Of a DNA stretch of 64,000 bases, positions 25,830 to 59,018 are shown in pieces (positions within the stretch are counted from its first letter, which is position 1; every line of letters starts with the position of its first letter). The position numbers were made by a program, and so were the translations under genes. The DNA is taken from NCBI RefSeq assembly GCF_024124375.1, contig NZ_JAMXRZ010000001.1, positions 1 to 64,000 on the forward strand. The letters run 5' to 3'. Origin of the DNA: Klenkia sp. PcliD-1-E. GTDB taxonomy: Bacteria > Actinomycetota > Actinomycetes > Mycobacteriales > Geodermatophilaceae. The notes under the pieces are model-generated. The model ran no database searches. It saw only the letters and a list, made by a program, of their open reading frames with translations, and had not been told where the DNA came from.

Positions 25830-25869
25830 TTGGTTGCACCGGGGGCCCGGGTGTGGTGTCCTCTCCGCC

Positions 25870-25950
25870 GTGACGTACTCGCTCGCGCTGCACCGGAGGT
25901 CCGCCGTCGACCTCCTGCGCGTCGCCAGCGCGCTGTGTCCGGGCTGCTGA
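25870..25950 (+). CDS. Short cysteine-ended leader peptide (putative attenuator)
   Basis: 26-residue ORF from GTG at 25870 to TGA at 25948-25950. It reads VTYSLALHRRSAVDLLRVA and then SALCPGC. The RRxxVDLLRV core with Cys at the end is the pattern of actinobacterial leader peptides found before sulphur-metabolism genes, where ribosome stalling at Cys codons controls downstream expression. Two of its last four codons are Cys (TGT, TGC). It ends 67 bp before the cysteine dioxygenase start. The family resemblance is from memory, and function here is inferred. Confidence 0.75.
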   Translation: MTYSLALHRRSAVDLLRVASALCPGC

Positions 25951-26017
25951 CCCCCAGCCCCCGTCACCCCGCCGCGGACCGTCGCGTCCCGCCGCGCCCC
26001 CACCCGGAGACACCCCT

Positions 26018-26587
26018 GTGCCCAGCACCGTGCTGCCCACTGCCCTGACCACCTCCCCGACCGCTGCCCCGTCGGTCCCGGCCGACGCCCCCGCCGGGGC
26101 CGCTGCCCTGGCCGTCGCCCTCGCCATCCGCACCGACCTGTGGGCCGACCGGGTCGAGTACCGGGAGGCCTCCCGCTGGACCTCGCTGCTCGACCCCGCC
26201 GACGTCGCGCCGGCCCTGGACCCCTCGCTGCACGCCGAACTGCACGACGCGCAGGTCTGGCTGCTGTCCTGGCTGCCCGGCCAGGGCACCCCGCTGCACG
26301 ACCACGGCGCCTCCGCCGGTGCCTTCGCCGTCGCCCGGGGGACCCTGACCGAGCGGGTCGTCGCCCGCGGGACCGGTCGCCCGGCCCGGCAGAGCACCAC
26401 CGACCTGGGTGCCGGGCGGGTCCGCTTCTTCGGCGCGCACTACGTGCACCAGGTGGTCAACACGCTGCACGAGGCGGCGGTGAGCGTGCACGTCTACGCG
26501 CCCCGGCTGACCCTCATGAACACCTACCGCGTCGACGGCGGCCAGCTGGTCCGCACCGGCACCGAGCGCGCCGGGGTGGACTGGTGA
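26018..26587 (+). CDS. Cysteine dioxygenase
   Basis: 189 residues from GTG at 26018. Cupin fold: His94 and His96 in TPLHDHGASAGAFAV and His145 in GAHYVHQVVN form the 3-His iron site. It oxidises L-cysteine to cysteine sulphinate, removing excess cysteine. The N-terminal ~35 residues are Ala/Pro/Thr-rich and probably disordered. Its TGA overlaps the GTG of the rhodanese gene (GTGA), and a cysteine-type leader peptide precedes it, so the pair forms a cysteine-catabolism operon. Confidence 0.92.
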   Translation: MPSTVLPTALTTSPTAAPSVPADAPAGAAALAVALAIRTDLWADRVEYREASRWTSLLDPADVAPALDPSLHAELHDAQVWLLSWLPGQGTPLHDHGASAGAFAVARGTLTERVVARGTGRPARQSTTDLGAGRVRFFGAHYVHQVVNTLHEAAVSVHVYAPRLTLMNTYRVDGGQLVRTGTERAGVDW

Positions 26588-27018
26588 CCGCCCTCCTCGA
26601 GCCCGTCCGCGCCCGCCCGGCCGGGGCGGTGTCGGTCGACGAGCTGCTCGCCGCCGCGCGCTCCCGCATCCAGCGCGTCACCCCGCTGGAGGCCGCCGCC
26701 CGGGTCGCCGCCGGTGGGTTGCTGGTCGACATCCGCCCGGCCGCGCAGCGGTACCGGGAGGGCTGGGTGGCCGGCGCCCTGGTGGTGGAGCGCAACGTGC
26801 TGGAGTGGCGGTTCGACCCGGCCAGCGGTGCCCGGCTGCCCGAGGCCACCGGCTACGACGTCGACGTCGTGGTGCTGTGCTCGGAGGGCTACACCTCCAG
26901 CCTGGCCGCCGACGCGCTGCGGGCGATCGGGCTGTCCACCGCCACCGACGTGGTCGGCGGCTTCCACGCCTGGGTGGCGGCAGGACTGCCACACGTGCGC
27001 GGGCACGGGGTGTCCTGA
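26584..27018 (+). CDS. Rhodanese-like domain protein
   Basis: 144 residues from GTG at 26584, overlapping the cysteine dioxygenase stop. Single rhodanese domain: LLVDIRPAAQRYREG, then active-site Cys99 in VVLCSEGYTSSLAA and GGFHAWVAAGLP at the end. The loop CSEGYTSS carries the catalytic Cys, so sulphur transfer (or sulphite handling after cysteine oxidation) is plausible. Coupling to cysteine dioxygenase is common in actinobacteria. Confidence 0.9.
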   Translation: MTALLEPVRARPAGAVSVDELLAAARSRIQRVTPLEAAARVAAGGLLVDIRPAAQRYREGWVAGALVVERNVLEWRFDPASGARLPEATGYDVDVVVLCSEGYTSSLAADALRAIGLSTATDVVGGFHAWVAAGLPHVRGHGVS

Positions 27019-29890: not shown

Positions 29891-30292
29891 TCAGCCGAGC
29901 CGTCGCTGGTCGAGCGGGCTCACCCGGGCCAGGACGTCGAAGTCCCGGTCGCGGTGGACGACCTGGGCGCCGTGCCGGATGGCCACGGCGGCGATCAGGC
30001 AGTCGACGAGGCTGCGGACGGTGGCGCCCTCGGACCGGGCGGCCTGGTACAGCCCGGCAGCGGCGCGGAAGTCCAGGGTGGCCCGCAGGCCGGCGACGGG
30101 CAGGCCGCCGACGATCCGGTCGACGCGGGCCAGCTCGCCGCCGCGCGCGCCGGCGAGCAGTTCCATCACCACGGGCTCGCAGAGGTGGACCTCGAGGAAC
30201 CGGTCGTCGAGCAGTCGCTGGACGTCATCGGCGACCGGGCGGGGACGGTCGCGCAGGTAGGCGATCCAGGCGGAGCTGTCGAGCAGGATCAC
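29891..30292 (-). CDS. vapC: PIN-domain toxin VapC
   Basis: 133 residues from GTG at 30292, overlapping the vapB stop (GTGA). PIN fold: [15 protein letters not shown] with the first Asp, [10 protein letters not shown] with Glu, and [29 protein letters not shown] with the two later Asp residues. All four acidic metal-binding residues of PIN ribonucleases are present. It should be an RNase toxin held by VapB. The locus lies at the end of a run of minus-strand genes starting with icmF. Confidence 0.9.
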
Positions 30293-30498
30293 GTGCGGGG
30301 CGCTGTTCCGTCCCGCATGGCCTCCAGGTCACCCGACCAGCCCGAACCTCGCAGGTCCCGCAGCGTGTCAGCGGTGACCGGGCTGCCGACCAGGCGGCGC
30401 AGGGCCAGGTCGACGGCGTCCTTCTTCGTCGACACGTCGAACCGGCGCATCACCTCGGCGACCAGGGCGTCGTCCAGGTCGATGTTCGTGCGACTCAT
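30289..30498 (-). CDS. vapB: Antitoxin VapB (ribbon-helix-helix)
   Basis: 69 residues from ATG at 30498; the in-frame upstream GTG at 30513 adds only MYRWC and is less likely. N-terminal [20 protein letters not shown] is the VapB-type ribbon-helix-helix that binds DNA as a dimer, followed by [14 protein letters not shown]. The C-terminal tail would bind VapC. It starts 16 bp after the upstream gene, and a palindrome lies in that space. Confidence 0.9.
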
Positions 30499-30508
30499 GC
30501 ACCAACGA

Positions 30509-30525
30509 TACACATCAGAGGTGTA
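30509..30525 (-). promoter_or_regulatory. Candidate vapBC operator TACAC-N7-GTGTA
   Basis: Perfect 5-bp halves at 30509-30513 and 30521-30525 directly before vapB, overlapping the stop of the upstream gene. On the minus strand TATCGT just after it could be a -10. VapB-VapC complexes usually repress their own promoter at such sites. Confidence 0.45.
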
Positions 30526-57639: not shown

Positions 57640-57857
57640 GGTCCGGACGGATCGTTCCGCCACCTCCCCTGGGTGGCACCGGCCGGACGCCGCCGAACCA
57701 CAGCCGCCCCCCAGCACCACGAGCACCACCGGGGAGCGGCAGGACCGGGGACCCACCGAAGCACTGGGGTGAAGCACCGACGGCCCGCCAGGGCCCGACG
57801 TGCCGGGCGACCTTCCCGCCCGAATCCGTCAGCTAACCCGGTAGGCGGCTCGATGGA
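57640..57857 (+). ncRNA. Cyclic di-AMP riboswitch (ydaO-yuaA type)
   Basis: The region contains the conserved blocks of the ydaO/yuaA class: GGATCGTTCCGCCACC (57650-57665), GGGGTGAA about 57766, and CCGGGCGACCTTCCCGCCCGA followed by ATCCGTCAGCTAACCCGGTA up to 57843. The first and last parts pair (GATCG…CCGCC with GGCGG…CGAT at 57845-57854) as stem P1. In actinobacteria this riboswitch lies before cell-wall hydrolase genes, as here, and c-di-AMP binding turns expression off. The assignment rests on remembered consensus, not a covariance search. Confidence 0.88.
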
Positions 57858-57878: not shown

Positions 57879-59018
57879 ATGGCGAGTTCCAGCACGGCCG
57901 CGCGCCGCCCTGCCCTCCTCCGGGGGCGTCGCGCAGCGATCACCCTCCTCGCCGCCGCCGGGGTCCTCGTGACCACGGCCCCCGCGCAGGCCGCCCCCGG
58001 CGACACCGCCGAACCCACCACCGCCGCCGAGGCCGCCCAGCTGGTCGCCGACCGCGGCCACCAGCTCGAGGTGCTCACCGAGCAGTTCAACGACGCGCGG
58101 GTCGCGCTGGAGGCCGACCAGGCCGCGCAGACCCAGGCCGTCGCCGACGCCCAGGCGGCCCAGGCCGGCTTCGAGGCCGCCCGCAGCTCGGTCACCAGCG
58201 TCGCGCGCACCGCCTACCAGGGCGGCAGCCAGCTCGTGGGCCTGCAGACCTTCCTGAGCGCCAGCTCGGCCGGCGAGTTCGTCGAGCAGGCGGCCACCCT
58301 GGACCTGCTCTCCGCGCACAGCACCGAGGTGCTCACCCAGGCGCAGCAGGCCAACGACGCCGCGACCGCCGCGCAGCAGGAGGCCGAGCAGGCCACCGCC
58401 CAGGCGCAGGCCCAGCTCGACACGGTCACCGCGCAGCAGGACCAGCTCAACGCCGAGATCGCCGAGTACCAGGCCCAGTACGAGCGGCTCTCCGCCGCCG
58501 AGCGGGCCGCGGCCGAGGCCGCTGCCGCCCAGGCCGCCGAGCGTGCCGGTTCGGTCAGCCGGTCCTCCAGGGACGACGGGTCGTCCGGCTCGGCCAGCTC
58601 CAGCTCGAGCGGGTCCAGCGCTGCGCCGGCTCCCTCGGCGGGCGTCGTGTCCGGTGGCTCCGCCGCCGCGCAGACCGCCGTGCAGACCGCGCTGGCCCAG
58701 CAGGGCGACCCCTACGTGTGGGCCGCCGCCGGGCCGAACAGCTTCGACTGCTCGGGTCTGGTGCAGTACGCCTACGCCGCCGCCGGCATCTCGCTGCCGC
58801 ACTCCAGCCGGTCCCAGGCCGCCATGGGCCAGGCCGTCTCCCGCAGCCAGCTGCAGCCCGGTGACCTGGTCGCCTTCTACTCCCCGGTCAGCCACATCGG
58901 CATCTACATCGGCAACGGCCAGATGGTCCACGCGCCGACGTCCGGCGACGTGGTGAAGGTCGCCAGCATCGACGCGATGGGCTCCGCGCCCACGGCCTAC
59001 CGCCGCATCGCGGGCTGA
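57879..59018 (+). CDS. Secreted NlpC/P60 peptidoglycan hydrolase
   Basis: 379 residues from ATG at 57879; GAAAGGA lies at 57859-57865. Signal peptide ending APAQA-AP at about 38. A long Ala/Gln coiled-coil region (45-225) resembles RipC/RipA-type N-termini. A Ser-rich linker (226-250) is followed by the NlpC/P60 domain (262-379) with Cys291 in SFDCSGLVQYAY, His339 in VSHIGIYIG and His351. It cuts the peptide stem of peptidoglycan outside the cell. It is controlled by the c-di-AMP riboswitch directly upstream. Confidence 0.94.
   Translation: MASSSTAARRPALLRGRRAAITLLAAAGVLVTTAPAQAAPGDTAEPTTAAEAAQLVADRGHQLEVLTEQFNDARVALEADQAAQTQAVADAQAAQAGFEAARSSVTSVARTAYQGGSQLVGLQTFLSASSAGEFVEQAATLDLLSAHSTEVLTQAQQANDAATAAQQEAEQATAQAQAQLDTVTAQQDQLNAEIAEYQAQYERLSAAERAAAEAAAAQAAERAGSVSRSSRDDGSSGSASSSSSGSSAAPAPSAGVVSGGSAAAQTAVQTALAQQGDPYVWAAAGPNSFDCSGLVQYAYAAAGISLPHSSRSQAAMGQAVSRSQLQPGDLVAFYSPVSHIGIYIGNGQMVHAPTSGDVVKVASIDAMGSAPTAYRRIAG

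Follow-up and report, generated by a model that had tools for sequence, protein, structure and literature searches.

A probable cysteine-responsive leader peptide upstream of a thiol dioxygenase/rhodanese operon in Klenkia and other Geodermatophilaceae

INTRODUCTION

Leaderless poly-cysteine short ORFs of mycobacteria were reportedly described in M. smegmatis by Canestrari et al. in 2020. That work is cited in the available parts of two later papers, PMC13236596 and PMC9094748. According to the available text of the former, stalling in the upstream ORF (uORF) unmasks a downstream Shine-Dalgarno sequence, so that low cysteine turns the mycobacterial genes on; the accessible part of the latter notes that the G/C skew of such short ORFs is lowered by their Cys codons. 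Conserved Cys-rich uORFs of mycobacteria, one of them before cysA2, also appear in the accessible portion of PMC4633059. For Rhodobacterales, ribosome-mediated attenuation at a cysS uORF (uORFC-8-2) has been proposed to sense Cys-tRNA(Cys) (PMC8632094, available part); that uORF has tandem Cys codons, predominantly UGC, and an intrinsic terminator, whereas UGU is the codon of the actinobacterial family treated here, and we saw no terminator at the present locus. Eight S. lividans leader peptides are listed in PMC8079986, and none is named cysteine-dependent in the part of that paper available. The profile NF042934 (cis_reg_atten, "putative leader peptide", Actinobacteria) shares its core with the peptide studied here and likewise has a sulfur-metabolism operon behind it, the score being marginal in our case.

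Here we analyse a leader ORF in the first 64,000 nt of a contig of Klenkia sp. PcliD-1-E (the window). It resembles the mycobacterial poly-Cys short ORFs in being a short ORF on a probably leaderless message, with Cys codons near its 3' end and sulfur genes as neighbours. It differs from them in having no poly-Cys tract (one Cys conserved in 51/51 relatives, and one variable Cys) and in preceding a dioxygenase gene. The locus most likely belongs to the known attenuator class, extended to an ergothioneine-dioxygenase-like/rhodanese operon in Geodermatophilaceae. In the literature searched, which took in few subscription papers, we found no paper on a leader before a cysteine dioxygenase gene, no description of an NF042934-type leader ahead of an ergothioneine-dioxygenase-like gene, and no report of the UGU codon rule set out below.

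RESULTS AND DISCUSSION

The Leader ORF and Its Family

An earlier note on this DNA had placed a GTG-initiated ORF of 26 codons 67 nt ahead of the dioxygenase gene, and the sequence bears this out (Table 1): the gap runs from the leader stop codon to the dioxygenase GTG at 26018. The ORF carries two Cys codons, the first TGT and the last TGC (25945-25947). TGT is indeed uncommon, as had been remarked: in a set of 27 window ORFs, selected on length and codon composition, 115 Cys codons are TGC and 7 are TGT. The 26-aa peptide matched NF042934 with 27.4 bits (E 1.8e-6; NCBIfam cut-off 27), and a search of all six frames of the genome gave 25.7 bits (E 7.6e-5) at the leader, slightly below the cut-off, so that membership is marginal by score. 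The 19-position core of the profile is aligned end to end over residues 5-23, with the conserved Cys as its last position. The family's position upstream of a sulfur-metabolism operon is found here too, with CDO_I and Rhodanese domains encoded downstream, in agreement with the suggestion that the peptide belongs to an actinobacterial leader family ahead of sulfur operons. The likeness to NF042933 (Ms5788A family Cys-rich leader peptide) is partial, with 21.9 bits over residues 2-23, far below the cut-off of 45. The NF042934 match and the recurrence before dioxygenase genes show that the short ORF is real and rule out a chance ORF.

Table 1. Features of the leader peptide locus in the window
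Feature	Position	Strand	Remarks
Putative weak promoter	25834-25862	+	-35-like TTGCAC (25834-25839) and -10-like TGTCCT (25857-25862); found by eye
Leader peptide ORF VTYSLALHRRSAVDLLRVASALCPGC	25870-25950	+	26 codons; GTG start, TGA stop (25948-25950); NF042934
Core GCC AGC GCG CTG TGT CCG	25924-25941	+	Strongest codon conservation; putative approximate footprint of a ribosome stalled on TGT
Putative sensor codon TGT, conserved Cys	25936-25938	+	TGT in 51/51 relatives and in 112/114 family members among the matches listed
C-rich, G-poor spacer	25951-26005	+	Holds GGAC (25976-25979), GTCC (25986-25989) and CGCGC (25993-25997)
Shine-Dalgarno GGAG of the dioxygenase gene	26006-26009	+	
Thiol dioxygenase gene	26018-26587	+	Pfam CDO_I, 56.9 bits (cut-off 23); GTG start
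Rhodanese-domain gene	26584-27018	+	37.7 bits (cut-off 22.2); GTG start; 4-nt overlap with the dioxygenase stop

Conservation of the Leader

The dioxygenase is present in 53 of 112 Geodermatophilaceae genomes. Fifty-four dioxygenase loci were fetched, and one at a contig end (L009) was left out, which gave 53 loci with upstream sequence. The conservation search that the earlier note had called for found the leader ahead of the dioxygenase gene in 51 of the 53. The two loci without it (L062 and L063), counted as misses here and excluded from the codon counts, encode remote homologs with 33-35% identity. The leader C-terminus reads SALCPxx in 45 cases and ends otherwise in six. These six (L018, L042, L043, L056, L060, and L061), which come from some Geodermatophilus-like genomes, form a second leader type with mostly SAACR ends and the same enzyme downstream; in the last three the dioxygenase start is unclear or the gene looks truncated and degenerate, with the leader retained.

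The peptide had been described as cysteine-ended, and this does not hold as a feature: the final residue of the 45 SALCPxx-type leaders is Cys in just nine, Arg being the most frequent (15/45). Stalling at two Cys codons, as proposed earlier, is likewise unsupported, because conservation is restricted to the first Cys.

We also looked at 42 dioxygenase loci further afield (L160-L179, L336-L355, L122, and L141). An adjoining leader was present in 10 of them, namely in eight of the 22 loci of family f15 and in L176 and L141. We found no adjoining leader in f16 (six loci), f13 (five), f2 (three), f5 (two), or f11 (one). A leader-like ORF 890 nt upstream of the L122 dioxygenase gene was not scored as adjacent, and a pattern match in L173 that lacked the motif was not counted. 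The leader-like peptide of L176 (genome G352, family f8) contains five Cys, all encoded by TGT, and lies about 250 nt upstream of the His motif of the dioxygenase; the enzyme behind it retains the Tyr-x-Arg motif considered below.

Conservation of the peptide reaches far past the Cys, and NF042934 models 19 residues with no Cys tract. An RRxxVDL motif would be needless for presenting a Cys codon alone, and these observations raise the thought of nascent-peptide arrest, in which RRxxVDLLRVASAL would act in the exit tunnel and something besides, or together with, Cys-tRNA would be sensed. We consider this unlikely: a pure peptide signal leaves the UGU requirement described next unexplained, and the adjacent codons point to an RNA or codon constraint as well. 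In the 45 leaders the positions near TGT are nearly fixed at the codon level, with AGC in 44/45 (0.28 in window genes), GCG in 41/45 (0.32), and CCG in 45/45 (0.56); codons further upstream are more variable.

A Near-Invariant UGU Codon

The conserved Cys is encoded by TGT in all 51 Geodermatophilaceae leaders, and the variable Cys in these leaders by TGC, both at the last residue (9/9) and near the start (7/7). The wider family was surveyed by searching 119 genomes of the phylum and 296 genomes of the class with NF042934. The codons were read in 114 distinct leaders, the stronger-scoring among the matches listed, from 88 genomes and 26 families; the low-scoring L035-L039, the partial L187, the window's own leader, and two rows of identical DNA (116 reduced to 114) were left out. 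Since NF042934 is a protein profile, codon choice played no part in the selection. Among the matches listed, the conserved Cys was TGT in 112 leaders and TGC in two (L186 and L274), and TGT was used throughout in 24 of the 26 families. Where the matched stretch held just one Cys, its codon was TGT in 29 of 30 leaders, again among the matches listed. In the same listed peptides a second Cys, seven codons upstream, was TGC in 57 and TGT in three, and the ORFs downstream of these leaders contained 177 TGC and 18 TGT codons. Fisher tests of the TGT bias among the matches listed gave about 1e-39 and 1e-61, values that ignore relatedness. At other Cys positions among the matches listed, partly in poly-Cys tracts, TGT was found in 17/64 before the conserved Cys and in 29/74 after it; UGU is thus above background there as well, and the rule is not restricted to one codon.

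The near-constant TGT at the one conserved Cys suggests a sensor to which the codon itself contributes. The genome has a single tRNA(Cys), with anticodon GCA, among 45 tRNA hits; it would read UGU by G-U wobble, which may make UGU more sensitive than UGC to a shortage of charged tRNA. Most simply read, the codon data make UGU, decoded by wobble, the sensor codon, as we infer from sequence comparison. A ribosome might pass an early UGC and pause at UGU owing to the G-U wobble, perhaps worsened by falling thiolation of tRNA(Cys) in sulfur starvation. As a tentative proposal, a little short of an even chance in our judgement, the sensor of actinobacterial cysteine attenuators may be UGU and not Cys codons generally, with one synonymous base setting the sensitivity of the sulfur regulon through G-U wobble.

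TGT could instead be kept solely for base pairing with a downstream RNA partner, decoding playing no role. Ten of the 48 dioxygenase loci have a complement of GTGTC/CTGTC downstream, against 4.1 ± 1.8 expected. Family-wide, among the matches listed, exact 5-base complements over TGT were found in 4 to 10 of 113 loci (3.5 to 4.7 expected), a weak signal at most, and the codons on either side of TGT vary widely. Given these variable flanks and rare complements, a fixed RNA partner fails to account for the TGT, and we set it aside as very doubtful.

Promoter and Spacer RNA

In the window TTGCAC sits 36 nt before the leader start codon and, together with TGTCCT, would put the transcript start at or beside the GTG. 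Of the 47 loci with an ATG or GTG start, 36 carry a TTGACA-like box, TTGAC(A/G) with at least 5/6 matches, at -35/-36 relative to that codon; among 765 shifted positions the rate is 0.4%. We found no Shine-Dalgarno sequence before the assumed leader start in any of the 51 loci. This box placement in the relatives and the missing Shine-Dalgarno sequence point to a leaderless message, so the leader ORF of the window is probably translated from one too, with a degenerate -35 of its own: the window and its nearest relatives L002-L004 and L006 (four of the five nearest in the set) match the box at 3/6 positions only.

The spacer between leader and dioxygenase gene was examined for a conserved switch. 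The earlier note had singled out a GGAC/GTCC stem; both arms are present in the spacer, and this particular stem is not kept in the relatives. Across loci, GC-rich hairpins are a recurring feature ahead of the Shine-Dalgarno sequence, and co-evolution tests, none of them significant, gave p = 0.069 for the spacer hairpin, p = 0.46 for pairing of leader and 3' arm, and p = 0.19 for leader and spacer. On 13 sequences RNAalifold predicted 12 pairs, none of them compensatory, and on five groups it returned group-specific folds only. Neither a local hairpin starting from the Cys codon (mean z -0.35; below -1 in 11/48 loci and above 1 in 4/48) nor one between the stop codon and the Shine-Dalgarno sequence (mean z -0.60) was retained as a general feature. 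In the window RNA the Shine-Dalgarno sequence is predicted to be 0.72 paired, 80% of this with the leader core. This predicted pairing is strong in the window alone, and with a mean pairing of 0.03 the 48 loci lend no support to a conserved masking of the Shine-Dalgarno sequence by the leader. A 7-bp perfect stem in the window leader (GGAGGTC/GACCTCC) depends on the codons preferred in Klenkia and does not recur generally among the leader codons compared. In 30/48 loci the leader GCGCG has a complement no more than 40 nt away from the dioxygenase start (11.7 ± 2.9 expected from dinucleotide shuffles), and CGCGC lies 23-27 nt ahead of the start codon in 26/48 (25 nt in the window). Both counts fit a helix between leader and ribosome site that a paused ribosome would break; the CGCGC block is also used by GC-rich local hairpins.

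Since no U-run follows the spacer hairpins, an intrinsic terminator is unlikely. Base composition makes Rho-dependent attenuation a live alternative: the spacers are C-rich in 48 loci (C 0.57, G 0.25) compared with 12 control upstream regions (C 0.38, G 0.34), C exceeds twice G in 31/48 spacers against 2/12 controls, and the window spacer is at C 0.65 and G 0.24. Completing the leader would then expose the C-rich spacer and recruit Rho, and pausing would alter this, with cysteine still the signal. The control set is small, however, a Rho site is not defined by base composition alone, and with a ribosome halted four codons short of the stop codon the greater part of the spacer would still lie open. 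We therefore rate termination by Rho as possible yet somewhat unlikely.

The Dioxygenase and the Sign of the Response

Of the 30 loci L001-L030, 28 have a rhodanese gene beside the dioxygenase gene, as have 35 of the 42 loci in a partly overlapping set (L080-L121); loci with no rhodanese match by the dioxygenase are L018, L019, L097, L105, L107, L115, L116, L117, and L119. The predicted structure of the dioxygenase (mean pLDDT 87.8, from an alignment of 26 sequences) is nearest to solved ergothioneine dioxygenase structures, with Z 17.3-19.3 and 27-28% identity, an identity too low to assign ergothioneine as the substrate; cysteine dioxygenases rank behind (Z about 15-16, mostly 19-20% identity). 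Sequence searches also put ergothioneine dioxygenase nearest. The nearest structure, the Thermocatellispora tengchongensis enzyme (PDB 8qfl to 8qfr), likewise lacks Tyr-x-Arg; here the partner gene encodes a rhodanese. The CDO_I domain, the metal-binding His residues, and the Ser-His-Tyr residues (SVHVY) expected of a cysteine dioxygenase are all present in the target.

By sequence alignment the Tyr-x-Arg motif is replaced, with RWTxLL in the family versus RWYxRL in the f16 and f13 enzymes. The motif contains the substrate-binding Arg, which we take to be Arg60 of rat cysteine dioxygenase. In the readable f15 enzymes the Arg is absent in 16/16, with a leader present at eight of these and none found for the other half. 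The 16 loci that keep the Arg (six of f16, L122, three of f2, five of f13, and L176) have an adjacent leader in one case only, L176. This association of Arg loss with the leader is confounded by descent. The target is apparently a thiol dioxygenase nearest to ergothioneine dioxygenase and without the cysteine-binding Arg.

The earlier note had reasoned that the target degrades cysteine, so that low cysteine would stall the ribosome, turn the operon off, and spare cysteine from destruction. In favour of that sign are the Pfam name CDO_I (56.9 bits), the superfamily residues of SVHVY, and two leader-bearing outgroup enzymes that sit uneasily with the pattern of a missing Arg, L176 with RWYTRL and L141 with RWWAQL. 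Against it, the mycobacterial mechanism as described in the available part of PMC13236596 has the opposite sign, the nearest solved relative is an ergothioneine dioxygenase, and the genes behind the other leaders of the genome are of the sulfur-assimilation type. These three further leaders, each with TGT, precede a TauE/SafE gene, a DUF4395/rhodanese pair, and a nitrite/sulfite reductase gene. A sulfur-salvage role switched on at low cysteine fits this set of genes better than cysteine destruction does. The premise that cysteine is the substrate thus loses its footing, and switching on at low cysteine makes sense for a target nearest to ergothioneine dioxygenase that apparently lacks the cysteine-binding Arg. 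Sign and metabolic logic are probably the reverse of those proposed earlier, and we regard the off-switch as improbable.

Proposed Attenuation

The attenuator reading itself is sound on the strength of leader-family membership and conservation before the operon. We concluded that the 26-codon ORF, on a probably leaderless message, is likely to be a cysteine-responsive leader-peptide attenuator of the thiol dioxygenase/rhodanese operon that turns it on at low cysteine. When Cys-tRNA(Cys) is scarce, the ribosome would pause with UGU in its A site and cover AGCGCGCTGTGTCCG, which would alter a downstream RNA fold or termination. The operon would come on jointly with the sulfur genes behind the genome's other leaders, and the enzyme would probably scavenge sulfur from a thiol, possibly ergothioneine, so that cysteine is not wasted.

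The locus suggests that some actinobacterial "cysteine dioxygenase" annotations may denote sulfur-salvage enzymes under cysteine-starvation control. The wider point is the UGU rule: the leaders make up a natural data set in which one synonymous position, UGU versus UGC read by the same tRNA, is strongly selected, and the effect of codon identity on the sensitivity of ribosome-based amino-acid sensing becomes directly testable. If the rule is true, a single synonymous base would tune a whole sulfur regulon, here including a salvage operon of the ergothioneine type.

Other Elements of the Window

Rfam gave no element at gathering scores at the leader locus. Its sole match in the window is a c-di-AMP riboswitch (RF00379, 47.5 bits) at 57744-57842 (+), and the ORF right after it (57879-59018) looks by eye like a cell-wall hydrolase gene. 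Closer to the operon, at 29891-30513 (-), lies a type II toxin-antitoxin module of a VapB antitoxin (PF09957) and a PIN-domain protein (PF01850).
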